Assembly: GCF_007713715.1 (NCBI RefSeq)
Contig: NZ_VJWX01000021.1
Coordinates: 1-32,020 of the forward strand
Length of the DNA: 32,020 nt
From: Amycolatopsis rhizosphaerae
GTDB taxonomy: Bacteria > Actinomycetota > Actinomycetes > Mycobacteriales > Pseudonocardiaceae
Reading direction: 5' to 3'
The translations under genes and the position numbers were made by a program. The notes beneath the pieces are model-generated. The model worked only from the letters and a program-made list of their open reading frames with translations. It was not told the DNA's origin and searched no databases. Shown here piece by piece: positions 12,361 to 27,585 of the stretch. Position 1 is the first letter of the stretch. Each line of letters opens with the position of its first letter.

Positions 12361-12449
12361 CGTGCCATCCACAGCGCGATCGGCCGGAGACGGGCAGGAT
12401 AGGGGACGGGGTAACCACCGGTTGAACAACGATTGACGAGGTGAAGGCC

Positions 12450-13082
12450 ATGACCCGAGCAACGGACTCGGTCGGCGAGTCGGTCCGGACCGGCTTGCTG
12501 GGCCTGCGTAAACGCGCCGTCGAGGCGGGTAAGGCGGGGGCCGAGGCCACCGTCCGTGTCGCGCAGGTGGCCGCGGAGAGCACCGAAGGGGCCCGTAAGG
12601 AGGCGGCGAAGCGAAGCCGTCAGGCCACGGCGGACCTGGCCCGCAAGTCCGGCCAGACCCGCAAGGAGCTCGCCAAGGCAGGTAAGCAGGCGCGCAAGGA
12701 GGCAGCCGAACGGCTCGCCGAGATGCGCAAACCGGGCCGCAAGGCCCGCAAGGCCGCGCTACGGGCCGCCAAGGCGGCAGGGGAATCGAAGCGCAAGGCC
12801 AAGCGCGATTTCAAGATCGCGAAGAGGGACTTCAAGGCCGCACTGGCGGAGGCGAAGCTGGCGGCCAAGGGTGGCAGGCGCCGCCGCCGCTGGCCCTGGC
12901 TGCTGGGCATCGCCGTGCTCGCGGGCGGAGCGGCCTTCGCCGCCCTGCGCCCGAAGCCGCAGCCCCCGGTCGCGGCCGAGCCGCCACACACCGGCACGAC
13001 GCCGAAGGCCGAGACAGCGCCGAGCGCGAACGGCCAGCAGACCGCACAGGCGGCGTCCTCGGCTCAGCACCGCAAGGCCTGA
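12450..13082 (+). CDS. cwsA: Cell wall synthesis protein CwsA
   Basis: The protein is 210 aa from the ATG at 12450, preceded by GAGGTGAAGG; an in-frame GTG at 12441 is an alternative. Residues 10-145 are a long Lys/Arg/Ala/Glu-rich helix or coiled coil. One transmembrane helix follows (RWPWLLGIAVLAGGAAFAAL, about 150-170), then an extracellular Pro/Ala-rich tail. This layout and the location next to ppiA and crgA fit CwsA, which binds CrgA and Wag31 and supports polar growth and division. It is longer than the roughly 145-aa mycobacterial protein because of the extended basic region. Transcribed divergently from ppiA. Confidence 0.85.
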   Translation: MTRATDSVGESVRTGLLGLRKRAVEAGKAGAEATVRVAQVAAESTEGARKEAAKRSRQATADLARKSGQTRKELAKAGKQARKEAAERLAEMRKPGRKARKAALRAAKAAGESKRKAKRDFKIAKRDFKAALAEAKLAAKGGRRRRRWPWLLGIAVLAGGAAFAALRPKPQPPVAAEPPHTGTTPKAETAPSANGQQTAQAASSAQHRKA

Positions 13083-15331: not shown

Positions 15332-16195
15332 CTAGCGGCTCGGGAGGCCGAAGGAGTTCCAGGGCGGCTCGGGTGAAGGCGTCGCGTCGGCGTCGGTCAT
15401 CGGTTTCGCCCTCCCCCGGAACGTGATCAGGTCCTCGCCCGCCACGCAGCGGGCGGGGAACGCCGCCGAGGCCGCCCGAGCGGCCACCGCGGCGACCGGC
15501 AGTTCGACGGGCGACGCGGCCAGCACCACGTTGCCGAAACGGCGGCCCCGCAACACGCCCGGCTCGGCCAGCAGCAGCGCGTGCGGGAACACCGCCGTCA
15601 CGGTGGCGACGGTGCGGCGGGTGAACACCAGGCCGGGCCCATCCGCGATATTGATCAGGTAGGTGCCCGCCGGTCGCAGCACTCTCGCCACGTCCGTGGT
15701 GAACTCGACGGTGGCGAGCCCGCCGGGCATGCGGGCGCGCTGGAACACGTCGGCCACCACGAGATCGGCGGAATTGTCGCGCCGGGTGGCCAGCCCCTCC
15801 CTGCCGTCGGAGATCCGCACTCGCAGCTGAGGCACGGAGCGCAGGTCGAGCTGCTCGCGCACGAGCTCGATCAGCGGGCCGTCGGCGTCGAAGACCAGTT
15901 GCCGCGAGCCGGGCCGGGTCTCGGCGACGTAGCGGGGCAGCGTGCAGCCGGCGCCCCCGAGATGGACCGCTTCCAGCGGTCCCTCCCGGAGACAGTCGAC
16001 GACATCGCCCATGCGCCGCACGTAGTCGAATTCCAGGTGCGTCGGATCGTCGAGGTCGACGTAGGACTGTGCGATCCCGTCGACACTGAGCAGCCACCCG
16101 CCGGGCCGGTCGGCATCGGCCAGCAACTCGGCCGTACCGAAGCGCACCGGATACTTCCCCGGCACCGGTTCACCGCCCTTGCGCCGCTTCGCCAC
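15332..16195 (-). CDS. Spermidine-synthase-like SAM-binding protein
   Basis: The protein is 287 aa from the GTG at 16195, one base after the stop of the DinB gene. It has the aminopropyltransferase/methyltransferase Rossmann core: VHLGGAGCTLPRYVAET (motif I), LVFDADGPLIELV (acidic ribose-binding loop) and ADLVVADVFQ. Actinobacterial proteins of this shape are often annotated as spermidine synthase or fused-MFS relatives, but the substrate is uncertain. The C-terminus (PEPPWNSFGLPSR) is not part of the core. It is the last gene of the run SDR, MFS, DinB, this gene. Confidence 0.75.
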   Translation of the reverse strand: MAKRRKGGEPVPGKYPVRFGTAELLADADRPGGWLLSVDGIAQSYVDLDDPTHLEFDYVRRMGDVVDCLREGPLEAVHLGGAGCTLPRYVAETRPGSRQLVFDADGPLIELVREQLDLRSVPQLRVRISDGREGLATRRDNSADLVVADVFQRARMPGGLATVEFTTDVARVLRPAGTYLINIADGPGLVFTRRTVATVTAVFPHALLLAEPGVLRGRRFGNVVLAASPVELPVAAVAARAASAAFPARCVAGEDLITFRGRAKPMTDADATPSPEPPWNSFGLPSR

Positions 16196-16196
16196 G

Positions 16197-16712
16197 CTAC
16201 GGACCCGTCACGCCGTCGACCTGTTCCCTCAACAGGTCCGCATGTCCGTTGTGCCGGGCGTACTCCCCGATCATGTGCTGGTAGATCATGCGCAACGAGA
16301 ACGGCTCGCCGCGGTGGTCGAACGTGTCGTCCAGCGAGGCGTCCGCGACGGCCTCGTCGGCCAGACGCCACTCCTCGCGATACCGCGCGTAGTCGGCCTC
16401 GGCCCGCTCGGGGTCCAGATCGTCGAAATCGGCGTCCTTGCCCTTGGCCGGGTCGTACATCGGCGGCAGTTCCTGCCCCGAGAACCGCTCACGGAACCAG
16501 ATCCGCTCGACCTTCGCCAGGTGACGGATCAGGCCGAGCAGCGACAGGCTCGACGGCGGTACGGACCGCTGAGCGAGCTGCTCACCGGTCAACCCGGCGC
16601 ATTTGGCCAGCAGGGTCTCGCGTTGGAAGGTCAGGTAACCGGTCAGCAGGGTCCGTTCGGGCGCGCTGGTCGAGCCGCCCGCGCGAACCACCTCAGGGGC
16701 AGTCCATGTCAT
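16197..16712 (-). CDS. DinB/DUF664-family protein
   Basis: The protein is 171 aa from the ATG at 16712 (MTWTAPEVV), a usual start for this family. An ATG at 16739, which overlaps the MFS stop and has GAGGTG upstream, would add nine residues and suggests coupling. The four-helix DinB fold is indicated by SLSLLGLIRHLAKVERIWFR and YARHNGHADLLRE, which carry the metal-binding His residues. Members act as bacillithiol- or mycothiol-dependent transferases in some cases; the role here is unknown. Confidence 0.85.
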   Translation of the reverse strand: MTWTAPEVVRAGGSTSAPERTLLTGYLTFQRETLLAKCAGLTGEQLAQRSVPPSSLSLLGLIRHLAKVERIWFRERFSGQELPPMYDPAKGKDADFDDLDPERAEADYARYREEWRLADEAVADASLDDTFDHRGEPFSLRMIYQHMIGEYARHNGHADLLREQVDGVTGP

Positions 16713-16738: not shown

Positions 16739-18304
16739 TCACACGGCACCTCGGTCGGCTTCCCGCCGCCGCGCGCGGGGCACGAACACGACGGTCAGCA
16801 GGATCACGACCAGCGGCAGCAGGCTGACCACGGCCATGGTGATCCGGACCGCGTTCGAGTAGTCCACGCCCAGCGTCAGGCCCTGCATCTGCTGCACGAG
16901 GTTCGGGTTGTAACCGGTGTTCCCGGGACTGTTCGCCATCGCGGCCGTCACCGCATCCACATCGTGCCGGGCCTGTTGCGCGGACAGCGCGCGGGACTCG
17001 GCGTCGGCCAGCCACTGCCGCTGGAACAGCAGGTTGATCAGCAGGATGTAGACCGTCGGCCCCAGCGCGTACCCGATCATCCCGAAGGTCGGCTGCACGG
17101 CGGTCACCGCGCCCGCCTTTTCGGGCGGGGCATGGGACATCACGATGTCCGAGGCCGGGGTGGAGGTGAGGAAACAGCCGAGGTTACCGAGCCAGGTGAT
17201 GAGCACCAGGAGCCAGACCGCCATCGTCGGTGTGGTCGTGGCGGCCTGCACCAGTCCGGCCGTGGTGAGCGCGATCAAGCCCACGAGCAGCACGGGCCGT
17301 GCGCCGTACCGGGCGATCAGCCGCCCGGTGAGCACACTGACCGCGGCCAGTACCAGGGTGCCCGGCAGGTACAGCTGCCCGATCGCCCTCGCGGACAGGT
17401 TCAGGACGTTCCCGCCGAACTGGCTCAGCACCACGCTGAACCCGGCGGACAGGAAGTTGAGGGTCAGCGCCGACACCACGGCGATCACGAAGGGGGCGAT
17501 GCGGAACAGGCTCAGGTCCAGCGCCGGCCGCGGGGTCCGCAGCTCCTGGATCACGAACAGGGTGAGCGCGACGGCGGCGACCAGCAGCGGTCCCCACGCC
17601 TGGACGGTGAACCCGTTCTGGATCTCACCGACGCCGAAGACAAGGCACAGCAGGGCACAGCCGAAGAGGACGACGCCGAGGACGTCGAAGCCCGCACCGC
17701 GCCGGACTGGAGGTTCGGCCACGTGGCGGATGGTGAGCATGAGGCCGCCCAGCGCCAGCACCGGCGTGACCAGGAACAGGTACCGCCAGCCCAGCGCGGC
17801 GACCAGTTGCCCGCCGATCAGCGGCGTCACACCGAACAGGAAGGCGTCGGTGGCCATGAAGACGCCCAGCGCTATCGGGCGTATCTCGTCGGGTATCGAC
17901 ACCCTCAGCAACGCCAGCGACAGGCCGAGCAGTGCGGTGAGCGCCAACCCGTCCAGGAAGCGCGCCATCAGCAGGAACCAGTACGTCGGGGACACCGCCC
18001 CCAGCAGTTGGGCGAAGACGTTGAGGGCGAACCCGAACAGCAGCAGGCGTTTGAGCCCGAACCGGTCGCCGAGGTTCCCGATCGCCAGCACCGCGGCGGC
18101 GATGACCAGCGTCGCAAGTCCGCTGAGGAACCCCAGCTTGTCGCTGGGCACGGCCAGGCCGTGACTGACCTCGGTCAGGTTGAGGCTGAGCATCAGCGGG
18201 TCGACGGCGGTGATGGCGAAGGCGAGGCCCAGCCCCAGTACCTGGGCCAACTGCGCCCAGGTCAGCCGGGCGCGGCGCTGCCTGGTCCGGACTGCCGCTG
18301 GCAT
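16739..18304 (-). CDS. MFS transporter, 14-helix DHA2-type exporter
   Basis: The protein is 521 aa from the ATG at 18304. A basic N-terminus leads to about 14 predicted helices. Motif A appears as GNLGDRFGLKRLL after helix 2. A Pro-rich central loop lies near residue 200 (EPPVRRGAGFDV). The C-terminus is Arg-rich (FVPRARRREADRGAV). DHA2 proteins export drugs or metabolites by proton antiport. Its neighbour upstream on the same strand is an SDR, 92 bases away. Substrate unknown. Confidence 0.88.
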   Translation of the reverse strand: MPAAVRTRQRRARLTWAQLAQVLGLGLAFAITAVDPLMLSLNLTEVSHGLAVPSDKLGFLSGLATLVIAAAVLAIGNLGDRFGLKRLLLFGFALNVFAQLLGAVSPTYWFLLMARFLDGLALTALLGLSLALLRVSIPDEIRPIALGVFMATDAFLFGVTPLIGGQLVAALGWRYLFLVTPVLALGGLMLTIRHVAEPPVRRGAGFDVLGVVLFGCALLCLVFGVGEIQNGFTVQAWGPLLVAAVALTLFVIQELRTPRPALDLSLFRIAPFVIAVVSALTLNFLSAGFSVVLSQFGGNVLNLSARAIGQLYLPGTLVLAAVSVLTGRLIARYGARPVLLVGLIALTTAGLVQAATTTPTMAVWLLVLITWLGNLGCFLTSTPASDIVMSHAPPEKAGAVTAVQPTFGMIGYALGPTVYILLINLLFQRQWLADAESRALSAQQARHDVDAVTAAMANSPGNTGYNPNLVQQMQGLTLGVDYSNAVRITMAVVSLLPLVVILLTVVFVPRARRREADRGAV

Positions 18305-18396
18305 GGCCTCATCGTCACACGGGAGAACGGCCACCGCCGGGCGGTCAGGCTGCAGAGGATCGCCCGTGATTCCCGTGCGGCCATCGGCCACCGGCT

Positions 18397-19287
18397 TCAG
18401 CCGCGCTTGACCAACTCGTCCTGGTACTCCGACGGTGCCCCTCCGGTCCAGGGCATGACCTGGCCGAACCGGACGAGTTCGCCGTACTGCTTCGGGTCGA
18501 TTTCCTTGGCGAACACCAGGTCGAGCAGGGCGCGAGCGGCCTGCTCCGGGGTCTGCGCCTGGCTGAAGTCGTCGAACCACGGCCGCGACGCGGCGGTATC
18601 GATGAGGCCGGGACAGACCGCAGCGATCAGCGTGCCGTCCGTGAGATCGCGCTCGCGGCGCTGCGCCGCGACCGCCCGCACGGCCGCGACCTGGGCCACC
18701 TTGGACGGGACGTTGATCCACGCCGGCCAGCCCAGCGATTCGGCGGTGCCGTCGTGGATGGCCTTGAGCCAGGCTTCGACGACCTGCTCGACCCGGTCGA
18801 GGGTGGCGCCTTCGAAAAGGTGGTGCAGCCGGGGATCGAGCCTGCCCAGCATGCCCAGGGAGCTGGCGACCACGAGCAGCCTGCCCCCGGGCCGCAGCAC
18901 CGGCCCGAAAGACCGCAGGATCGCGTGCGTGCCGCCGTTGGCCACCGCGACGAAGGCGTCGGCCTGCTCGGCCTGCGACCGGTCGGGGGTGATCCGGGCC
19001 GACGCGTTCGACAGGACGATGTCCACCCCGCCGTAGGCCCGTTCGAGTTCGGCGGCCATGCGTGCCACCGCGTCCGCGTCGCTGACGTCGAGCACCCGGC
19101 CCTCGACCCGGCTCTTCGTGCCGGGGGCGTTCGCGACGAGTGCGGCGGCGTCGGCGACCCGCCGTTCATCGCGTCCGGTGAGCAGAACCAGGTCCTCGGG
19201 CCCCAGCCCGGCCGCCAACCCCTCGGCGAGTGCGAAACCGAGCCCCTGGTTGGCCCCGGTGACCAGGGCGATGCGTTGCGCTGTCAT
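18397..19287 (-). CDS. Short-chain dehydrogenase lacking the catalytic tyrosine
   Basis: The protein is 296 aa from the ATG at 19287. The Rossmann start is intact: VTGANQGLGFALAEGL, with TGRD after strand 2 and NASA in place of NNAG. In the catalytic YxxxK position the sequence is N192-V-P-S-K196, so the Tyr proton donor is missing while Lys remains. I recall related annotated proteins with the same change, so it may be a subfamily feature rather than decay. Divergent from a LysR gene that probably controls it. Confidence 0.82.
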   Translation of the reverse strand: MTAQRIALVTGANQGLGFALAEGLAAGLGPEDLVLLTGRDERRVADAAALVANAPGTKSRVEGRVLDVSDADAVARMAAELERAYGGVDIVLSNASARITPDRSQAEQADAFVAVANGGTHAILRSFGPVLRPGGRLLVVASSLGMLGRLDPRLHHLFEGATLDRVEQVVEAWLKAIHDGTAESLGWPAWINVPSKVAQVAAVRAVAAQRRERDLTDGTLIAAVCPGLIDTAASRPWFDDFSQAQTPEQAARALLDLVFAKEIDPKQYGELVRFGQVMPWTGGAPSEYQDELVKRG

Positions 19288-19357
19288 GACTTCAGGTTAG
19301 GAACATCGCGGCCATGCGAACAGCGAAAGTTTCTCAGCGCTGGTATGCGTAAGTTTC
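19288..19357. promoter_or_regulatory. SDR/LysR divergent promoter with direct repeat
   Basis: The 70-bp gap contains GCGAAAGTTTC (19323-19333) and GCGTAAGTTTC (19347-19357), ten of eleven bases equal, 24 bp apart start to start, and ending at the LysR ATG. Repeats at this distance sit on the same helix face within about two turns. A LysR autoregulatory site is the simplest reading. Confidence 0.5.
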
Positions 19358-20278
19358 ATGGACTTGGCCGATGTCTCACCCGGCGCACTGCGGGTGTTCC
19401 GCGAGGTGACGGAACGGGGCACGCTCACCGCGGCCGCGGCCGCACTGGGCTACACCCAGTCCGCCGTCTCCCGGCAGATCTCGGCACTGGAACGGGCGGC
19501 GCGGGTGCGGTTGCTGGAGCGACGGCATGACGGCGTCCAGTTGACCGAAGCGGGGCACATCCTGCTGCGGCACGCCACGATCGTGCTGGACCAGCTGGAT
19601 GCCGCGGCCCGCGAACTGGCCGGCCTGCCCGCGCGGGCCGGTACGGTCCGGCTCGGCTGGTTCGCCAGCGCGGGTGCCTTCCTCGTCCCCGCAGCACTCG
19701 CGACGCTGCGCCGCACCGATCCGGCCATCACCGTGGTGACCCGCGAAGGCAGCACGCCAGCCCTCGCCCGCGCGCTGCGGACGGGCACGCTGGACCTCGC
19801 CGTGCTGGCGTCCGGACCACCGTTCCGCCCGCTCGACACGGAGTCGCCACCGCTGGAGTTGCGGACGCTCACCGAACGTCCGCTGTGCGTCGCGGTCCCC
19901 GCGACGCATCCGCTCGCGCGGGCCGAAGCGGTCACCGTTGCGGAACTGCGCGGTCAGCGCTGGATCGCCGCACCGTCCGGAAAGGACGAGCTGATGGGCA
20001 TGTGGCCGGGCCTGGACGATCGACCGGAAGTCGTCCACACGGCACGGGACTGGCTCGCGAAACTGCATCTCGTCGCCGCCGGTTGCGGCGTGACCACGGT
20101 GCCGGCGGGCCTCGCCTCCGCGGCCCCGGCAGGGGTGCGGATCCTGCCCGTGCACGGCGGCCCGGTCGAACAGCGCCGCGTCGTCCTCGCCCGGCTCCCG
20201 CAACCGCCCACGGAGGCCGTGAACCGGCTCGCCGACGCCCTCCACCGCGCCGCGGCCGAGGTGTTCGCGGGGAAATAG
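19358..20278 (+). CDS. LysR-family transcriptional regulator
   Basis: The protein is 306 aa. Residues 8-65 form the winged HTH (FREVTERGTLTAAAAALGY, TQSAVSRQISALERAARVRL). The rest is the periplasmic-binding-protein-like effector domain (RLGWFASAGAFLVPAALATL through AAPAGVRILPV). It is a DNA-binding regulator responding to an unknown small molecule. Divergent gene order makes the SDR-MFS run its likely target. Confidence 0.93.
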   Translation: MDLADVSPGALRVFREVTERGTLTAAAAALGYTQSAVSRQISALERAARVRLLERRHDGVQLTEAGHILLRHATIVLDQLDAAARELAGLPARAGTVRLGWFASAGAFLVPAALATLRRTDPAITVVTREGSTPALARALRTGTLDLAVLASGPPFRPLDTESPPLELRTLTERPLCVAVPATHPLARAEAVTVAELRGQRWIAAPSGKDELMGMWPGLDDRPEVVHTARDWLAKLHLVAAGCGVTTVPAGLASAAPAGVRILPVHGGPVEQRRVVLARLPQPPTEAVNRLADALHRAAAEVFAGK

Positions 20279-20285
20279 TTTCCGA

Positions 20286-20310
20286 AACCCTGCCATGCCG
20301 TGGCAGGGTT
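20286..20310. terminator. Perfect 10-bp stem hairpin after LysR
   Basis: AACCCTGCCA (20286-20295) pairs exactly with TGGCAGGGTT (20301-20310) around TGCCG. It starts eight bases after the LysR stop and ends 19 bases before the next gene's ATG. It can be a terminator for LysR. Its symmetry and closeness to the following start also allow an operator for that gene. Confidence 0.6.
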
Positions 20311-20329
20311 CGCGGCGATCGTCGTCGGC

Positions 20330-21247
20330 ATGAAGACAGATCTCACGAACAAGGTGGCACTGGTGGCCGGGGGTACCCGGGGCGCGAGCAGGGCGATCGC
20401 GGTGGAGCTCGGCAGGAACGGGGCGACCGTCTACGTGACGGGACGTTCCTCCGGGGGGCAGCGGTCCGAAGTGAACCGGACCGAGACCATCGAGGAGACC
20501 GCCGAACTGGTCCGGCAGGCGGGCGGAACATCGGTCGCACTGCGGGTCGACCACCTGGACCCCGAGCAGGTGCGGGGCCTCGCCGAGCGCATCGACGGCG
20601 ACCACGGCGGGCTGGACATCCTGGTGGACGGTGTGTGGGGCGGCGACCACCACATGGCATGGGGGCAGCCGGTGTGGGAGCACTCGCTGGAGGCGAGCCT
20701 GCGCATGCTCCACCTCGGGATCGACGCCCATCTGATCACCGCTCACCACCTGCTGCCGCTGGTGATCCGCAAACCGGGCGGCCTCGTGGTGGAGATGACC
20801 GACGGCACGGCCGAATACAACGCCCAGTACCGCAAGGGAACCACGTTGGCGTTCTACCTGGCGAAGGCCACGGCACACTACCTCGCCATCGGCGAAGCGG
20901 CCGAGATGGAGGTTCACGGGTGCACGGCGGTGGCCATGACCCCGGGCTGGCTGCGCTCGGAGGCCATGCTCGAAATCTTCGGCGTGCGCGAGGAAAACTG
21001 GCGTGACGCGACGGCCAAGGAACCGGACTTCGCCATCTCGGAGACACCGGCCTTCGTCGGGCGTACCGTCGCCGCACTGGCCGGGGATCCGGACAAGGCG
21101 CGCTTTTCAGGGCAGACCCTGAGCAGTGGTCAGCTCGCGAAGGTCTACGGGATCACCGATGTCGACGGCAGCCGTCCGGACGCCTGGCGCTACATCGCCG
21201 AGGTGTCGGGCACCGACCGGGCGGGAGACACCACCGGTTACCGGTGA
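20330..21247 (+). CDS. Short-chain dehydrogenase/reductase
   Basis: The protein is 305 aa from the ATG at 20330 (MKTDLTNKVALVAGGTRGAS). An in-frame upstream start at 20300 lies in the hairpin and is rejected. The cofactor loop is AGGTRGASRA. TGRSS follows strand 2, suggesting NADP. In the active-site helix the sequence is F-Y-L-A-K, so Tyr is three rather than four residues before Lys. MTPGWLRSEAML is typical of a recognisable SDR subgroup. Its end overlaps that of the convergent WYL gene by ten bases. Confidence 0.85.
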   Translation: MKTDLTNKVALVAGGTRGASRAIAVELGRNGATVYVTGRSSGGQRSEVNRTETIEETAELVRQAGGTSVALRVDHLDPEQVRGLAERIDGDHGGLDILVDGVWGGDHHMAWGQPVWEHSLEASLRMLHLGIDAHLITAHHLLPLVIRKPGGLVVEMTDGTAEYNAQYRKGTTLAFYLAKATAHYLAIGEAAEMEVHGCTAVAMTPGWLRSEAMLEIFGVREENWRDATAKEPDFAISETPAFVGRTVAALAGDPDKARFSGQTLSSGQLAKVYGITDVDGSRPDAWRYIAEVSGTDRAGDTTGYR

Positions 21248-22203
21248 CGCTCCACCATCCGCCGTGCGAGGTCCGCGAACGCGGCCCGCACGGCGGGTGG
21301 TGCGACGACCTCGACCTCCGGCCCCAGCCCGAGCAGTTGCGCGGCCGCGATCTCCGGTGTCTCCAACGCCAGTTCCACCTCGGTCCACCCGTCGGCACCC
21401 GGCGGACCGGCCTGCTCCAGCGCCTCCGCCGCGAGACCGGCACCGATGACCGAGGGCAGCGCGCGCAGGCCACCGGGACTGAGCCGGACCCGCACCGCCG
21501 TTCTGGCCAGCTCACGCTCGAACCGCGCCGACGAACGCTCCCACCAGCTCACGAGCTCGAACCCGGGTGGCCGGTCGAACCGCTCGTCGAGTTCCTCGAC
21601 CGCCTCGATCCGCCCGGCACGGTAGGTGCGCACCTCCTCCCCGACGGCCGCGACGAGGTACCACACCCCGGCCTTGAGCACGAGTCCCAACGGCTCCAGC
21701 ACCCGCTCGACGGTCCGATCCCCGCGCCCGTAGGTGACGCGCACGCGCCGCTGCTCCCACACCGCACGGGCGACCGCCGCCAGGTGCTCGGCGTCGTCTT
21801 CGCGTCGGAACCAGCCGGGCGCGTCGAGATGGAACCGTTGTGCCAGATGCTGTGCCTGCTCACGCAACGGGGCGGGCAGCGTCGCCGAAAGCTTCGCGTG
21901 TGCCGCCGACATCGCCGTGCCCAGCCCCAGTTCCGCCAGTGCTCGCGGCACCCCCATCGCGAAGATCGCGACCGCCTCCCGGGAGGTGAGCCCGTCGAGC
22001 CGGGTGCGCCAGCCCTCCACGAGCCGCACTCCCCCGTACCGCCCCGGCTCCGTCCACAAGGGAACGCCCGACGCCTGCAACGCCGCCACGTCACGATGCA
22101 TCGTCCGCTCGGACACCCCGAGTGCCTTCGCCAGTTCGGCGATCGTCGCGCTGCGGCGGCTCTGCAAGACGAACAGCAAAGCCACCAGTCGTTCCGCCCG
22201 CAT
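21238..22203 (-). CDS. YafY-type HTH-WYL transcriptional regulator
   Basis: The protein is 321 aa from the ATG at 22203. The N-terminal HTH 11/DeoR-like domain (about 1-60) reads MRAERLVALLFVLQSRR, then TIAELAKALGVSERTMHRDV. The WYL domain (about 140-235) contains GVWYLVAAV and the Arg-containing TYRAGRIEAVEEL, followed by a C-terminal extension domain. WYL proteins sense ligands, often nucleic-acid-derived, and repress or activate neighbours. It is divergent from the FMN reductase gene, its likely target. A small inverted repeat lies between them. Confidence 0.9.
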   Translation of the reverse strand: MRAERLVALLFVLQSRRSATIAELAKALGVSERTMHRDVAALQASGVPLWTEPGRYGGVRLVEGWRTRLDGLTSREAVAIFAMGVPRALAELGLGTAMSAAHAKLSATLPAPLREQAQHLAQRFHLDAPGWFRREDDAEHLAAVARAVWEQRRVRVTYGRGDRTVERVLEPLGLVLKAGVWYLVAAVGEEVRTYRAGRIEAVEELDERFDRPPGFELVSWWERSSARFERELARTAVRVRLSPGGLRALPSVIGAGLAAEALEQAGPPGADGWTEVELALETPEIAAAQLLGLGPEVEVVAPPAVRAAFADLARRMVERHR

Positions 22204-22223
22204 CTTCCCGATCCTGCCGCAGA

Positions 22224-22236
22224 CGGGAATCTCCCG
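22224..22236. promoter_or_regulatory. Inverted repeat between WYL regulator and FMN reductase
   Basis: CGGGA (22224-22228) and TCCCG (22232-22236) flank ATC in the 57-base gap between divergent starts. A possible operator; short, so chance is not excluded. Confidence 0.35.
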
Positions 22237-22260
22237 GATGGTCTGTTCCTTTCACCTGGC

Positions 22261-22848
22261 GTGTCTGTGAACGACGAAAACAACCGCGACTTCCTCTTCC
22301 TGCTGGGCAGCGCCCGCACCGGTGGCAACACCGAGCATCTGGCCCGGCGGGCCGCCGAAAAGCTGCCGCCGGGTGCCGACCAGCGATGGCTGCGGCTCCG
22401 CGACCTCCCACTACCCGCCTTCGAAGACATCCGGCATGGCAGCGACGGTGTCTACCCTCAGCCCACCGGACACGCGAAAACCCTGCTCGACGCCACCCTG
22501 GAAACCACCGACCTCGTCATCGCCTCGCCGCTGTACTGGTACAGCGTCAGCGCGAGCGTGAAGCTGTATCTCGACTACTGGGCGGGCTGGATGCGCGTGC
22601 CCGGCCTGGATTTCCGCAGCCGGATGGCAGGCAAAACGCTGTGGGCGATCACCGCGCTCAGCGAGGAAGACCCCGCCAAGGCGAGCCCATTGGTCGACAC
22701 CCTGCGCAGCACCGCCGACTACCTCGGCATGCACTGGGGTGGCGCACTCCTCGGCTACGCCAACCGCCCTGGTGACATCTGGCGAGACGGCAAAGCCCTG
22801 TCGAAGGCCGACTCGTTCTTCACCAGCGACTACTTCCGTCCAAATTAG
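22261..22848 (+). CDS. Flavodoxin-fold NAD(P)H-dependent FMN reductase
   Basis: The protein is 195 aa from the GTG at 22261; a GTG at 22267 gives 193. The flavodoxin-like fold is shown by FLLGSARTGGNTEHLARRA (FMN phosphate loop) and ASPLYWYSVSASVKLYLDYW (isoalloxazine loop). No Shine-Dalgarno sequence is visible, so the transcript may be leaderless. It reduces flavin or quinone-like substrates. Divergent from the WYL regulator. Its stop overlaps the end of a small convergent ORF. Confidence 0.87.
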   Translation: MSVNDENNRDFLFLLGSARTGGNTEHLARRAAEKLPPGADQRWLRLRDLPLPAFEDIRHGSDGVYPQPTGHAKTLLDATLETTDLVIASPLYWYSVSASVKLYLDYWAGWMRVPGLDFRSRMAGKTLWAITALSEEDPAKASPLVDTLRSTADYLGMHWGGALLGYANRPGDIWRDGKALSKADSFFTSDYFRPN

Positions 22849-23000
22849 GCGTAGCTGCCGTACACCCGTTGTCCGAACTTCTGCCGCAGCCGCGAGGAGG
22901 CGCCATCGGCGGGCGGTCGCCACCGTTCCTCGACAGTGGTGCCCGCCACGACGATCACAAAGCCGGCCAGACAGGACACCATCACTGCGACCGCCGACAC
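22845..23000 (-). CDS. Small membrane protein, about 51 aa (start uncertain)
   Basis: The frame ends in TAA at 22845-22847, overlapping the reductase stop. From the GTG at 23000 it encodes about 51 aa: a hydrophobic segment VAVMVSCLAGFVIVVAGT, then a charged tail with RWRPPADGASSRLRQKFGQR, ending YGSYA. A TTG at 23018 would give 57 aa. An upstream in-frame TGA limits the start. One transmembrane helix with a basic C-terminal tail looks like a real protein, but there is no strong ribosome binding site and no family I recognise. Confidence 0.5.
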   Translation of the reverse strand: MSAVAVMVSCLAGFVIVVAGTTVEERWRPPADGASSRLRQKFGQRVYGSYA

Positions 23001-23091
23001 CGCCGCACGCCATGACAAGCGGCGTGCGGCGCCTCAATGTACGAAGCGCCTGATCAGGCCACGCTGGGTCGGGAGAAACACATGCCGTGGG

Positions 23092-23153
23092 GCTGTGGGG
23101 GCTCGGCCCTCACAGCAGAACGGGACATCGGGTCGATGGCCAACGGCCATCGA
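23092..23153. terminator. Two hairpins downstream of the displaced tRNA-Ala 3' end
   Basis: Bases 23133-23141 pair perfectly with 23145-23153 (9-bp stem, loop aac). A second stem pairs 23092-23101 with 23107-23116 with one mismatch. Read on the - strand both follow the displaced tRNA end at 23165, where the terminator of the original tRNA-Ala gene would be expected. Confidence 0.6.
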
Positions 23154-23164
23154 ACAGGATCCGG

Positions 23165-23207
23165 GTGGAGCTGAGGGGAATCGAACCCCTGACCCCTGCC
23201 TTACAAA
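23165..23207 (-). repeat. attL-like copy of tRNA-Ala 3' part (43 bp)
   Basis: This segment equals bases 25709-25751 of the intact tRNA-Ala gene at 42 of 43 positions. It covers the T arm, variable loop, 3' acceptor strand and part of the anticodon arm, with no 5' half. The single difference (a at 23203 against g at 25747) falls in the anticodon. This is the signature of site-specific integration into a tRNA gene, marking the left end of the element. Confidence 0.93.
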
Positions 23208-23216
23208 GGTCCGAAC

Positions 23217-24209
23217 CTATACACCGCTTGACCTGCACATACTCAACACGCCCGCGACCAGCTGTCCCCGCCCGGTCGGTGTGTCGGCGGGCACTCGCCC
23301 GGTGGGACGCTCGGCGATGATTTCCATGCTTCCGGGACCGTCGATCAGCAGGGCGCTGGGAACCAGGTCGCCGCTCGTATCGGGCGAGGTACGGACCCAG
23401 CCCTTGATCTCCTCGACCCAACCCGAACTCGCGCCCGCTACGTAGATATGGTCCGGGCTGATCAGGCCCACGATCAGCTTGTCCTCGCCGACCTTCTCGG
23501 CCGTCTTCTCGTGGAAGTCGCCCAGTACGATCGCGGACCCTGCGCACAGGTTGTTGTCGCGGCGCTCCAGAGTGAGTAGGAGTCCCTTCTCCTCGTCCGA
23601 ATGTCCCGTGAAGGAGAGCCCGCGTTTGAGGTTGCCGAGTGCTTCGCCAGCAAACTCGAAGAACTCGGCCTCGCTCATCTCCTCGAACCTGTTTCGTAGG
23701 AGGTGGGACATGCCGATCCGACCGTTGGGCATGATCGTTGTCTTGGCGAACCCGACGTGCAGCCTGCCGTCCGCCAGCGGCAAGGAAGCGTAGATCTTCA
23801 ACGGGCCGTCGTAGGTGTGGAGGATCGGCAACCATTCACCATCCTTTTCGGCCTTCAGGAACGTCTCCGTGCCACGTTCCAGCTCCATGAGCTCGCCGGC
23901 CCGTGCCATCACCTTGCCCGCGAATTCGAAGGCCTCACTCCAGTCATCGCCCTTGGGACGATCGAACTGATAGGTGTACTCGGCGCCGCGAAAAGTCCCG
24001 GCCAGGAAGACCCGATCCATCCGTGATGCCTGCCAGATGCTGTGCACCCGGGTTATCTCGGCTGCCTGGATCGGCCGCTCCTCCTGTACCTGGCGCCATG
24101 CCTGCCGGACAGCGTCCTCGGCCTTGGCGGGCGCCGCTCCCCGAAGCAGGTCGTCATCCCTACCGTTTACCTGGAAGAGGATGACGTTTGTGTCCACAGT
24201 CGTATCCAC
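23217..24209 (-). CDS. Unknown 330-aa element cargo protein
   Basis: The protein is 330 aa from the GTG at 24209 (MDTTVDTNVILFQV); a GTG at 24197 is a shorter option. The reading frame is fully open with normal composition, unlike the broken genes beside it. No signal peptide or membrane helix is seen. It is acidic and mixed alpha/beta, with stretches RPIQAAEITRVHSIWQ, GTFRGAEYTYQFDRP, and LIVGLISPDHIYVAGASSGW. I do not recognise a family. Its stop lies ten bases inside the left attachment repeat, so it is element cargo. Confidence 0.75.
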   Translation of the reverse strand: MDTTVDTNVILFQVNGRDDDLLRGAAPAKAEDAVRQAWRQVQEERPIQAAEITRVHSIWQASRMDRVFLAGTFRGAEYTYQFDRPKGDDWSEAFEFAGKVMARAGELMELERGTETFLKAEKDGEWLPILHTYDGPLKIYASLPLADGRLHVGFAKTTIMPNGRIGMSHLLRNRFEEMSEAEFFEFAGEALGNLKRGLSFTGHSDEEKGLLLTLERRDNNLCAGSAIVLGDFHEKTAEKVGEDKLIVGLISPDHIYVAGASSGWVEEIKGWVRTSPDTSGDLVPSALLIDGPGSMEIIAERPTGRVPADTPTGRGQLVAGVLSMCRSSGV

Positions 24210-24455
24210 AGCACGGTGACTCTACGCAACCTCGCTGACATCCCCCAGGTACGTCGAATGGCGTAGGCGCCTTGTTCCGAACATCCGGTACGGAACGGCT
24301 ACGGGTCCTGGCCTCCGAGATACTGATGATGGCTGTCCACGAGGTCGGCCAGGTGCTCGCCAAGCTGATGCGGGCCTACGGCCCGCTTGGAGACCTCGCC
24401 GCAATCCCGGGCGCGGCAGGGTTGCGGGCAGCGGCCAACAGTGCCGAACGCCTCG
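24210..24455. other. Element region with no supported gene
   Basis: Both strands carry only short frames. A - strand stretch near 24318-24470 has a Cys-rich RCPQPCRARDCGEVSKR followed by helical sequence, and could be the remnant of a small zinc-ribbon-like protein, but start and family are unclear. The promoter for the 330-aa gene must lie here. Confidence 0.3.
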
Positions 24456-25040
24456 CCGCGGAGTCGGGGGATCGCGAGCGGAGCACAGGTCCTGGCCCAC
24501 CTCGCGGCCGAGGCCGGGGCCACCATCCCCGACACCTACACCGTGGCGACCCCCTCCGGCGGCACCCACCTCTACTTCCGCCAACCCACAAACGCCCGGC
24601 TGGGCAATACCCACCACAGGGCGGGGTGGCTGATCGACACCCGCGGCGTCGGCTGGGCAAGTCCTCATCCCCGGATCGACCACCCCGGCCGGGGTCTATG
24701 AGCTAACCCGCGATGTCGAACCGGTCGAGTTGCCGGGGTGGTTTACACCGGCTACTTGCCGAACGGCCGTCTACGGCACTGACCGGCGAGTGTGAACGTC
24801 TCGCAAGGGCACCACAGGGGCAGCACAATGCCGCGCAGATGGCCGCCGGGCGCGCTATCGGGGAACTGGTCGGCGGCGGGCACCTCACCCACGCCGCCGC
24901 CCACGCCGCCCTTATGCAGCAAGCCCTTGCCTCCCATGTCACCGGCCGGTGCGGCTGCACCGAACGTGGCATCTCCGCCGTCCTGAACTCCGCCCTGACC
25001 TATGGCGCCCGCACACCCCGCCACATCAACCACGCCCGGA
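24456..25040 (+). pseudogene. Bifunctional DNA primase/polymerase remnant
   Basis: Three reading frames in succession give one protein. From about 24456: QVLAHLAAEAGATIPDTYTV, TPSGGTHLYF and WLIDTRGVG. After a one-base shift near 24650: GQVLIPGSTTPAGVYELT. After another near 24750: ALTGECERLARAPQGQHNAA through ALTYGARTPRHI. These match the later part of the AEP-type Prim-Pol domain and the C-terminal helical region of element-encoded primase-polymerases. The N-terminal catalytic Asp region is missing. Confidence 0.8.
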
Positions 25041-25104
25041 GGGATGCCGCCGGCGTGGTGTGGATACCCGTGCGGGTGCAGTACGCCACGGCCGGGCTCG
25101 CCGC

Positions 25105-25466
25105 GGGGTTGCGGTCACGCTGTGGATCGCGGCCAGCCATGCGCAACCCGCCTGGGCGTGCGCGCCCCGGCTGGTCATCCGGGCACCGGAGAAGCGGTGT
25201 GGGAAGTCGCGGTTGCTCGACGTGGTGGAGGCCACCTGCCATAACCCGCTGATCACCGTCAACGCCAGCCCCGCCGCGGTGTACCGGTCGATCACCGGTG
25301 ACCCGCCGGCCCTGCTGGTCGACGAGGCCGACACGATCTTCGGGCCGAAAGCGGGCGACAGCAACGAAGAACTCCGGGGCCTGCTCAACGCCGGACACCA
25401 GCGGGGCCGCCCGGCCCTGCGCTACGACGCCGCCCTGTCCGCTGTGGTCACCATCCCGACCTTCGC
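25105..25466 (+). pseudogene. DUF3631-type ATPase remnant
   Basis: A single frame reads GVAVTLWIAASHAQPAW, then LVIRAPEKRCGKSRLLDVVE with a Walker A-like GKS, NASPAAVYRSI and a Walker B-like ALLVDEADTIFGPK. These are the core of DUF3631 proteins that accompany Prim-Pol genes in actinobacterial elements. The N-terminus is out of frame with the preceding remnant. The C-terminal part ends abruptly at VVTIPTFA, where integrase sequence begins. Confidence 0.8.
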
Positions 25467-25654
25467 CAGGAAGCGACGGTGCGGCGTTGGCGGAGCACTC
25501 TCTTGAAAAACGGAGTGGGCGCACCCACGGTCGCAAAGGCGTACCGGCTGCTCCGCGCCATTTTCACCACGGCGGTGGACGAGGACCACATAGTCAAGCG
25601 GAACCCAGGCCGGATCAAGGGCGCAGGAGACGACGAGTCGCCAGAACGGCCGTC
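25464..25654 (+). pseudogene. Tyrosine integrase core-binding domain remnant
   Basis: The frame reads QEATVRRWRSTLLKNGVG, TVAKAYRLLRAIFTTAVDED and KRNPGRIKGAGDDESPERP. This is the SAM-like core-binding domain of phage-type tyrosine integrases. The N-terminal arm-binding domain and the whole catalytic domain (R-H-R-Y) are gone. It ends at a hairpin 54 bases before the tRNA. Confidence 0.82.
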
Positions 25655-25688
25655 GGCCAGATCAGGGGAAATACCCCTTGACCTGGCC
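25655..25688. terminator. Hairpin beside tRNA-Ala 3' end
   Basis: Bases 25655-25668 pair with 25674-25688 (14 pairs, one bulged base, one wobble) around AAATA. On the - strand it follows the tRNA-Ala 3' end by about 20 bases, so it can terminate the tRNA transcript with element-supplied sequence. Confidence 0.7.
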
Positions 25689-25708
25689 CTCATCGGACTC
25701 AAAACTAT

Positions 25709-25751
25709 GTGGAGCTGAGGGGAATCGAACCCCTGACCCCTGCCTTGCAAA
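25709..25751 (-). repeat. attR-like repeat within intact tRNA-Ala
   Basis: Partner of the copy at 23165-23207, 42 of 43 bases equal. It runs from the anticodon loop to just past the 3' end of the functional tRNA, so integration restored a complete gene. Confidence 0.93.
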
Positions 25752-25782
25752 AGCAGTGCTCTACCAATTGAGCTACAGCCCC
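25710..25782 (-). tRNA. alaT: tRNA-Ala (anticodon TGC)
   Basis: The - strand folds as a 73-nt cloverleaf: acceptor GGGGCTG with CAGCTCC plus discriminator A; D arm with AGCTCAATTGGTAGAGCA; anticodon arm CTGCT-TTTGCAA-GGCAG with TGC at positions 34-36; T arm AGGGGTTCGATTCCCCT. CCA is not fully encoded. It follows tRNA-Ile in the gyrA region as in mycobacteria and is the integration target of the element. Confidence 0.97.
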
Positions 25783-25785
25783 GGA

Positions 25786-25804
25786 CGCGGGCTGGCTGCC
25801 CGCG
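25786..25804. terminator. Short GC hairpin between DLW-39 gene and tRNA-Ala
   Basis: CGCGGGC (25786-25792) pairs with GCCCGCG (25798-25804) around TGGCT. It lies four bases upstream of the tRNA 5' end, five bases past the DLW-39 stop on the - strand. A weak terminator or a processing element for the tRNA. Confidence 0.5.
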
Positions 25805-25809
25805 GGAGT

Positions 25810-25998
25810 TCAGTTGTTGTGGCCTGCGCCCGCGGCCTTGGCCGGCGCGCTGCCGTTGGACGAAACTGCCCCCAGCGGCTTCTCCGTCGGGGCGGTGGCT
25901 TCACGCCACAGGTCAGCTTCGGCCTTGGCGTCCTTGTTGCGCTTGATGACGAACAGCACACCACCCGCGATGACCGCGAGCGCCAACAGCTTCTTCAC
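25810..25998 (-). CDS. DLW-39 family small membrane protein
   Basis: The protein is 62 aa from the GTG at 25998 (MKKLLALAVIAGGVLFV); an ATG at 26010 would add four residues. One N-terminal membrane segment is followed by KRNKDAKAEADLWREAT, which holds the DLW signature naming the family, then an Ala/Gly-rich tail. These small proteins occur near gyrA in actinobacteria. Function unknown. Confidence 0.82.
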   Translation of the reverse strand: MKKLLALAVIAGGVLFVIKRNKDAKAEADLWREATAPTEKPLGAVSSNGSAPAKAAGAGHNN

Positions 25999-26122
25999 CT
26001 GAAGCCCCATTCTCGATGTTTCGGCTGACACACCGATGCTACTGCACCCCCGTCCGGGGTGAACGCGTAGTCCCACCACCGGCGGGTAGCGCCGAAATAC
26101 CGGCAACAGAACGAGATCCGAA

Positions 26123-26277
26123 ATGACCGACCGCGAAGACCGCCAGGAAGGCATCAAGGGCCGGGTCAAGGAGGCCATCGGCACGACCTTCGGCAACGAC
26201 TCGGCCCAGCGTGAGGGCCGCACCCAGCAGGACTACGGGCGCGCGCCGAAGGGGCGCGTCAGCGTGCCGAGCAATAG
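26123..26277 (+). CDS. CsbD-family stress protein with apparent frameshift
   Basis: Starts at the ATG at 26123: MTDREDRQEGIKGRVKEAIG, then TFGNDSAQREGRTQQDYG, a short CsbD-like protein. After codon 39 the frame continues through a terminator-like hairpin to 26413 with unlikely composition. One frame over, the sequence reads AEGARQRAEQQ and stops at 26275-26277, a fitting C-terminus. Adding one g in the ggg at 26237-26239 joins both parts into about 51 aa. A missing base in a GC run is the simplest explanation. Confidence 0.7.
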
Positions 26278-26291
26278 TGGTTCGCACTCTC

Positions 26292-26324
26292 GAGGCCGGC
26301 TGGGGAAGGAACCCGGCCGGCCTC
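26292..26324. terminator. 13-bp stem terminator after csbD-like gene
   Basis: Bases 26292-26304 pair with 26312-26324 (one G-U wobble) around GAAGGAA. It lies 14 bases after the corrected CsbD stop and three bases before the parS-like palindrome. Confidence 0.8.
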
Positions 26325-26326
26325 CT

Positions 26327-26344
26327 TGGTTCCACGTGGAACCA
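26327..26344. promoter_or_regulatory. parS-like centromere site
   Basis: TGGTTCCACGTGGAACCA is a perfect 18-bp palindrome. Its core GTTCCACGTGGAAC differs from the common chromosomal parS GTTTCACGTGAAAC only by one symmetric substitution per half, and I recall this core variant among Pseudomonas parS sites. A location about 3.5 kb from gyrA, close to the origin, is where ParB loading sites cluster. Confidence 0.85.
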
Positions 26345-26409
26345 GCGTCTTCGCTGGTAGAGCCGTTTTCGTTGACCTTGCCCAAGGGGCAGGCCGCACA
26401 GTGTGCGGC

Positions 26410-27474
26410 ATGAGGAAGGCAAGCGGGGAACTGCTGACGATCGGAGCCTTCGCCCGGGCCTCGGCCCTGTCCGCGAAGGCGTTGCGGCTCTACGACGAAC
26501 TCGGCCTGCTCCGCCCGTGCACGGTGGACGAGGCCTCCGGTTACCGCTTCTATGCTCCGGAACAGCTCGCGCGGGCCCGTCTGGTGGCCTGGCTCCGGCG
26601 ACTGGGGATGCCGCTGGCGCGGATCAAGGTCGTCTGCGAACTCGACGCCGAGGCCGCGGCGGAGGAGATCACCGCGTACTGGCGCCAGGTGGAGGCGGAC
26701 CTCCGGGCCCGCCGCGAGCTGGCCACCTTCCTCATCGATCACCTCTCGAGGAAGGAAGAACCCATGACACCGCTCGCCATCCGCTATGCCGCCCTGTCCG
26801 ACCGCGGCCTCGTCCGCGCCTCGAACCAGGACGCCGCCCATGCCGGAGCGCACCTGCTCGCCGTGGCCGACGGATTCGGCCCGGACCTGGCAGGGCAACG
26901 CGCCAGCGCGCTCGCGGTGGAAGCACTCAAACCCCTCGACCGGGCCGTACCGGCCGGCGAGCTGCTCAACGCGCTAGGCGCCGCCGTCCAGCGAGCCGGC
27001 CGGGCCGTGCGGGAGCTGTCCACGGGCGAGAGCGAGGCGGGGACGACGCTGACCGCGATCGTGTGGTCCGGATCGGAACTGGGGCTCGTCCACCTCGGGG
27101 ATTCCCGCGTGTACCTCCTGCGGGAGGGCCGCCTGTTCCAGCTCACGCACGACCACACCCTCGTTCAGGCGATGATCGACGAGGGCCGCCTCACCGAGGC
27201 GGAAGCCGAATCCCACCCCCAGCGCACGCTGCTCGTCAAGGCGCTCCACGGCCGTGGCACCGCGGAACCGGACATCGAACTGCGCGAAACCCGGCCTGGT
27301 GACCGATACCTGCTCTGTTCCGATGGACTCCACCGCGCGGTGAGCACAGTCCACCTGATCGAGGTGATGCGCGAAGTGGCCGACCCTGGCGAAGCCGTGC
27401 GTCGGCTCGTCGACCTGGCCAATCGCCGCGGCGGTACGGACAACGTCTCCTGTGTCGTCGCGGACGTGTGCTGA
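26410..27474 (+). CDS. MerR-type regulator fused to PP2C phosphatase
   Basis: The protein is 354 aa from the ATG at 26410 (MRKASGELLTIGAFARAS). Residues 10-80 are a MerR winged HTH (KALRLYDELGLLRPCTVDEA, SGYRFYAPEQL), followed by a dimerisation helix to about 115. Residues 120-354 are a PP2C domain: RASNQDA, AVADGFG, GTTLTAIVWSG, HLGDSRVYLL, CSDGLH and GGTDNVSCVV. The metal-binding Asp residues are present; the usual DGMGG is DGFGP. An in-frame ATG at 26764 (codon 119) follows AGGAAGG by eight bases, allowing a PP2C-only product. Confidence 0.9.
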   Translation: MRKASGELLTIGAFARASALSAKALRLYDELGLLRPCTVDEASGYRFYAPEQLARARLVAWLRRLGMPLARIKVVCELDAEAAAEEITAYWRQVEADLRARRELATFLIDHLSRKEEPMTPLAIRYAALSDRGLVRASNQDAAHAGAHLLAVADGFGPDLAGQRASALAVEALKPLDRAVPAGELLNALGAAVQRAGRAVRELSTGESEAGTTLTAIVWSGSELGLVHLGDSRVYLLREGRLFQLTHDHTLVQAMIDEGRLTEAEAESHPQRTLLVKALHGRGTAEPDIELRETRPGDRYLLCSDGLHRAVSTVHLIEVMREVADPGEAVRRLVDLANRRGGTDNVSCVVADVC

Positions 27475-27585
27475 CCAGTCCCTTGCCACGAACGGGTTCT
27501 CCCCACGGGTACGGGACCTACGCCCCTTGCCCGACCTGAGCCGGAATGTGTTCCGTGGAGGCAAGGAACGTCGAAGGAGGTACCC

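Follow-up and report, generated by a model that had tools for sequence, protein, structure and literature searches.

The 32,020-nucleotide stretch of Amycolatopsis rhizosphaerae DNA analyzed here (contig NZ_VJWX01000021.1; hereafter the window) contains a tRNA-Ala gene at which two copies of a 43-bp repeat enclose 2.5 kb of DNA. This interval holds an open frame of 330 codons together with fragments of an actinomycete integrative and conjugative element (AICE). An earlier note on the same DNA proposed that the element had been reduced to one intact gene, selectively retained as cargo. We consider it likely, and the best explanation overall, that the interval is a decayed AICE-type relic with a captured copy of a chromosomal gene family with an apparently dead deaminase fold, and that the gene is not selected cargo. 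Retention as cargo is unsupported because the family looks chromosomal, because another genus has the gene in this interval with no second repeat, and because its 3′ end in the window is chimeric. Hence, there is no good evidence that the 330-aa gene was kept as something useful, and the case shows how readily a sole intact gene in a dead element could be mistaken for selected cargo.

An AICE-type relic at a tRNA-Ala gene

The right copy of the repeat coincides exactly with the 3′ end of the tRNA-Ala gene, and the distal copy matches it at 42 of 43 positions, the single mismatch being A/G (Table 1). When the window was scanned with the 43-mer, the two sites gave 43 and 42 matches and the next-best site only 26 on the same strand, with 24 or fewer on the other, which excludes a chance repeat. 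The repeat described in the earlier note is therefore real, and the note was also right that the primase-polymerase (Prim-Pol), the DUF3631 protein and the integrase are all broken, each being only a fragment by profile or homologue alignment. The Prim-Pol fragment covers positions 68-127 of the 158 positions of profile PF09250. The fragment of RepAM, the DUF3631 protein, shares 84-85% amino-acid identity with five full-length homologues of 416-417 aa and stops before the PF12307/DUF3631 domain, which lies at residues 170-349 in the one full-length relative scanned. The integrase fragment adjoins the tRNA-side attachment site (att) and lacks the catalytic domain (residues 180-353 in the relative scanned). 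The RepAM and integrase fragments abut, an arrangement as after a deletion.

Of the features of an AICE, the interval has direct repeats derived from a tRNA 3′ end (42/43). In place of a working integrase beside one att, codons 116-180 of 375 remain, and in place of a whole replication gene (RepSA, RepAM or Prim-Pol) there are fragments of RepAM and Prim-Pol only. An FtsK/SpoIIIE-type transfer gene was not found in the interval when it was compared with the predicted genes of 10 loci, the transfer genes of intact-looking elements included; only the RepAM-type and integrase genes of these loci matched it at E 1e-3. According to one AICE study (PMC3218068), pMEA300-type AICEs have DUF3631 as their RepAM replication initiator, repAM is adjacent to Prim-Pol in 12 of the study's 40 Prim-Pol AICEs, and both tRNA 3′-end integration sites and AICE remnants are mentioned. 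The relic resembles the RepAM/Prim-Pol-type AICEs (pMEA300 class) of that account in its integration at a tRNA 3′ end, its integrase at the tRNA-side att, and its RepAM (PF12307) and Prim-Pol (PF09250) modules, and differs from them in having no whole integrase, whole replication gene or FtsK-type Tra and in its size of 2.5 kb. The interval is a relic of an AICE-type element, a known kind. We propose that the element decayed by deletions, losing its transfer gene if it had one, the catalytic domain of the integrase and the greater part of both RepAM and Prim-Pol. With these genes absent, it is presumably unable to move by its own means.

We compared the site in other genomes of the genus, using stretches of 10.2-17.5 kb around this tRNA-Ala, which is present in all 18 of them. 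A single copy of the 43-mer was found in 15 relatives and a full second copy in two (G002 and G013), while G012 (locus L071) has a partial second copy (32/43) 553 bp from the tRNA copy. In G002 (L061), an AICE sits at the same tRNA-Ala between copies of the same 43-bp repeat (42/43); it measures 12,184 bp from repeat to repeat and encodes RepSA, an FtsK-type Tra and, next to the tRNA, a tyrosine integrase. Unlike the window relic, it is apparently intact and 12.2 kb long, has RepSA rather than RepAM and a different att end beyond the repeat, and lacks the 330-aa gene. G013 (L072) carries a relic of 1,821 bp, of which the first 100 bp, including the repeat, are 91% identical to window 23165-23264. 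This att-end sequence was matched in 3 of 390 genomes of the family, namely the source genome (7.67 Mb in 896 contigs), G013 and one weak third match. The G013 relic and the G012 partial repeat suggest repeated insertion and decay at the tRNA-Ala. The idea of a tRNA-Ala-integrated element reduced to fragments holds: the site is unoccupied in 15 of the 18 relatives, and in G002 this tRNA carries an AICE that appears intact.

Table 1. Features of the interval and its target tRNA gene in window coordinates
Feature	Position	Strand	Basis
Distal attachment repeat, 42/43 vs tRNA-Ala 3′ end	23165..23207	-	Repeat comparison
Element end adjoining the distal repeat; together they match the relic at the same tRNA-Ala in G013 (L072) at 91% over 100 bp	23208..23264	.	
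Tail of the 330-aa frame from read-through, ending at the stop codon 23217-23219; not part of the family	23217..23270	-	
Native part of the 330-aa gene: deaminase fold in the N-terminal domain (residues ~1-102), no fold match for the C-terminal domain (~118-307)	23271..24209	-	
Upstream stretch with 73% identity to the G093 copy over 96 bp; may be the native promoter region	24210..24308	-	
Frame with Prim-Pol fragment, profile match at residues 31-89	24387..24701	+	PF09250 E 1.3e-11
RepAM (DUF3631 protein) fragment, codons 31-157 of 416	25111..25494	+	Comparison with full-length homologues
Tyrosine integrase fragment, codons 116-180 of 375	25476..25673	+	56% identity to a 375-aa integrase; phrog_1 integrase E 2.8e-5
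tRNA-side attachment repeat, the 3′ 43 nt of tRNA-Ala	25709-25751	-	Repeat comparison
tRNA-Ala, anticodon TGC, target gene	25709..25782	-	ARAGORN

The 330-aa gene and its family

The description of the 330-aa gene as intact stands in part: the frame is open and residues 1 to about 313 align with the family, but the gene's own stop codon is lost. DNA homology to the copies in G013 and in G093, a genome of another genus, starts at 23278, the element end in common with the G013 relic stops at 23264, and the last 17-20 residues are absent from the other 27 rows of a 28-row alignment. The last 17-20 residues are therefore read-through into the att end, and the native length is about 310-313 residues. 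Residues 309-330 were modelled with a predicted local distance difference test score (pLDDT) below 50. By these alignments, a rearrangement joined the 3′ end of the gene to the att end of the element and left the frame 17-20 residues too long. The GC content of the gene is 63%, against 69% for the window, and the copies in G093 and in a further genome, G032, likewise have 63%. Profile searches of Pfam, PHROGs, NCBIfam and PADLOC left the protein unmatched, and none of the searches gave the family a Pfam, PHROGs or NCBIfam name.

Homologues are present in 12 of 19 genomes of the genus, 19 of 200 of the family and 10 of 397 of the order, with the source genome counted and the three sets overlapping; all 10 order-level genomes belong to the window's own family. 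No relative was found in plasmid, phage and viral collections, in which 119 viral stretches matched a pattern, none of them a relative. We examined the contexts of 17 other copies with about 58% identity or more (L040-L053 and L133-L135), about 10 kb on each side except for L051 (14 kb in all), and used four integrases, RepSA, RepAM and Tra, seven mobility proteins in all, as tblastn queries against them. None of the 17 close copies lies inside a detected element. An element was found near one of them, in G015, where its attR, the 3′ end of a tRNA-Phe, precedes the gene and leaves it outside; G017 lacks that element and has the same gene and right flank. The 330-aa gene is also absent from five DUF3631-bearing stretches of about 20 kb each, with element ends unmapped (at tRNA-Ile in G011, G014 and G009, tRNA-Ser in G015 and tRNA-Phe in G013), and from the one tRNA-Ala AICE, so that its recurrence in other elements, proposed as a check of the cargo idea, was not observed.

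A clade with about 40% identity lies between glnD and ffh in the six genomes examined (L054-L059), where it was located by the run of gene lengths; the names glnD and ffh are our own reading, and the neighbor sequences were read in L055 alone. Copies of the family are scattered singly over chromosomes, and stand-alone N-domain and C-domain frames exist as well. The family, of proteins about 300 aa long, looks chromosomal and multi-copy. In G008, one copy (L053 9427-10336) is broken by a stop and split frames, and the genome has three other open close copies; family copies do get lost. A partial copy in G013 (L051 3798-5129) has its N-terminus fused to unrelated sequence in a 443-aa frame.

Between the window gene and the G093 gene, we estimated 0.13-0.14 nonsynonymous (dN) and 0.40-0.42 synonymous (dS) substitutions per site, a dN/dS of about 0.3. 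With G032 as the outgroup, 19 amino-acid-changing and 21 silent changes fall on the window branch and 24 and 16 on the G093 branch, with 27 and 10 ambiguous. These changes show purifying selection, a constraint that is not datable to before or after capture and is compatible with a trapped chromosomal gene. The dS values of core genes for the same pair are 0.51 for the peptidyl-prolyl isomerase (PPIase), 0.87 for DLW-39 and 1.1 for the lipoprotein (left out were the rhomboid row, which was out of frame, and the 13161 row, which crossed three stops ahead of the true start in G093). The 330-aa gene is slightly less diverged than these, which hints at transfer. The gene tree leaves the window copy unplaced, in no starred group.

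Fold of the protein and its possible function

The full-length model has a pLDDT of 85 and a predicted template modelling score (pTM) of 0.62. All 50 listed VIA-align rows for the N-terminal domain belong to the deaminase superfamily (best Z 6.9, root-mean-square deviation 3.4, 86 residues aligned), and the domain has the cytidine-deaminase fold, as do the XOO_2897-type deaminases (PF14440). PF14440 matched weakly in 8 of the 28 members (best E 0.0012) and did not match the window protein. Its cut-off was exceeded in none of the 19 genomes of the genus, a result that is uninformative because all 14 controls were silent as well. Unlike the XOO_2897-type deaminases, the family has a second, fused domain, and in all 28 members serine (S62) and aspartate (D65) stand where the cysteines of PCxxC are expected; residue 29, at the HxE position, is never histidine. 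The assignment of columns to these motifs followed motif order and secondary structure rather than a superposition. We take HxE and PCxxC to be the zinc-ligand motifs of deaminases, and the family lacks these ligands. What emerges is a small actinobacterial family whose deaminase fold has been stripped of its zinc ligands and which has a paralogue between glnD and ffh in the six genomes.

The C-terminal domain was modelled with a pLDDT of 89 and a pTM of 0.86. Its best VIA-align Z was 3.6, with none of 5 or higher, which does not show a new fold, Foldseek gave nothing significant, and the domain has no PDB match. PDB sequence profile searches returned chance-level rows only. DUF1444 (YtpQ; PF07285), a candidate for this domain, matched none of 39 C-domain members at E values up to 10, and PF07285 was found in none of 60 genomes of the phylum, while a Bacillus subtilis control worked.

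We infer that the N-terminal domain, with its deaminase fold but no zinc ligands, would have lost its enzyme activity. Tentatively, the protein might not be a deaminase but might bind a nucleotide-like ligand, either sensing or sequestering it. A role in defence or immunity is possible; candidate matches are weak and confined to a few of the 28 members, the window protein not among them. PADLOC gave weak matches to PDC-M45A in three members (best 1.4e-4) and to SduA in one (0.033), and a rescan of 10 members gave one partial match, in a distant member (L029 1480-2397; PDC-M45A, E 4.5e-4, residues 216-300). It would be a long shot to suppose that an unnamed class of two-domain dead deaminases travels with AICEs and stays beside their target tRNAs after decay (Ala here, Phe in G017 and G015, Ser in G032), acting as host decoys or sensors in nucleotide conflicts or against deaminase toxins or phages.

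Entry of the gene into the interval

Most likely, the element would have acquired a chromosomal gene at its distal end, or the gene would have recombined into it while it decayed. The copy in G093 matches the window gene at 82% DNA identity over 922 bp, with a further 73% over 96 bp upstream, and lies in the same orientation between the tRNA-Ala and the lipoprotein and PPIase genes, 6.7 kb from the tRNA; a second 43-bp repeat was not found within the 19.9-kb stretch. A gene in the same place without the repeat is what the earlier note had named as speaking against its proposal, and G093 has just that, in a different genus.

The gene could also have been inserted into the relic later and independently, in an interval that accumulates many unrelated genes, although we regard this as rather doubtful. 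From the backbone genes to the tRNA, the distance ranges from less than 0.1 kb (G003) to several kb, with differing gene content, and the single, scattered family copies would be in keeping with such insertions. The flanks of 23278-24308, however, have no clear target duplication or inverted ends. The only word shared around the gene block, of 7 bp, was judged near chance and rejected as an insertion signature.

Less probable still is that the gene was distal-end cargo, kept through the decay of the mobility genes because it benefits the host in defence, regulation or stress. It does lie inside the repeats next to the distal att, its frame is open and constrained, and at two other loci a close copy lies less than 1 kb from a tRNA used by AICE-type elements: tRNA-Phe in G017 and G015, and tRNA-Ser in G032, where the gene ends 78 bp from the tRNA and no second copy of the tRNA-Ser end was found in the stretch examined. 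Against selected cargo stand the contexts of the 17 close copies, the DUF3631-bearing stretches and the tRNA-Ala AICE that lack the gene, the empty plasmid, phage and viral searches, the G093 copy, the lost stop codon and a constraint that may predate capture. Improbable, too, to an even greater degree, is an old resident between the tRNA-Ala and the spermidine-synthase/PPIase side, shared with G093 by descent, around which the element was rearranged (for example by tandem insertions with the middle att deleted): the interval and orientation in G093, a gene dS (0.42) not far below that of PPIase and homology extending about 100 bp upstream would suit it, but the gene is in none of the 18 same-genus stretches at the site, 17 of which reach the spermidine-synthase-like gene, DNA matches of the G093 stretch to window 22000-27500 are confined to the gene and its upstream part, the tRNA side and one 23-bp word, and after a simple insertion at the tRNA the gene would lie beyond the distal att, which is the arrangement at tRNA-Phe in G015.

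Several observations weigh against the capture of a chromosomal gene by a decaying relic as we propose it. The gene lies between the repeats, as cargo would, and the close copies near tRNA-Phe and tRNA-Ser, a lead noticed post hoc, might indicate that the family travels with AICE-type elements. The seven-protein mobility search could miss another kind of element. The left flank of the relic, 22849-23164, had no match at the site in any of the 18 relatives, and a strict empty site with both flanks is for this reason not alignable; the search for empty sites that the earlier note had suggested thus yielded the single 43-mer copy in 15 relatives but no two-flank site. For the protein, the deaminase-fold Z values, below 8, are middling, and Foldseek with the full model gave no E below 0.13 and nothing significant.

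The surroundings of the interval vary among the relatives. Of the 18 stretches, 17 contain a counterpart of the spermidine-synthase-like gene (window 15335-16195) and 8 one of the DinB-type gene (16197-16691); in G003 the DinB match ends less than 0.1 kb from the tRNA. From the DinB-type gene to the distal repeat (16739-23164), the window encodes a major facilitator superfamily protein, two short-chain dehydrogenases/reductases, a LysR regulator, a WYL-type regulator and a flavin mononucleotide (FMN) reductase. Distant matches (28-37%) were found in the 18 stretches for LysR (2) and WYL (2), and none for the other four at E 1e-5. DLW-39 (25813-26010) is the gene 5′ of the tRNA-Ala. The placement of the element in a gyrA-cwsA interval is correct if 12441-13082, beside the PPIase gene, is cwsA, a likely name that follows the gene order of Mycobacterium tuberculosis. 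Next to gyrA, the neighboring tRNA-Ile is flanked in G011, G014 and G009 (L128, L129 and L131) by DUF3631-type elements with full-length RepAM, and elements thus seem to have two targets in this core locus, tRNA-Ile and tRNA-Ala, a few kb apart. The tRNA-Ile element of G014 carries a DNA methylase-like gene, as judged by reading its sequence.

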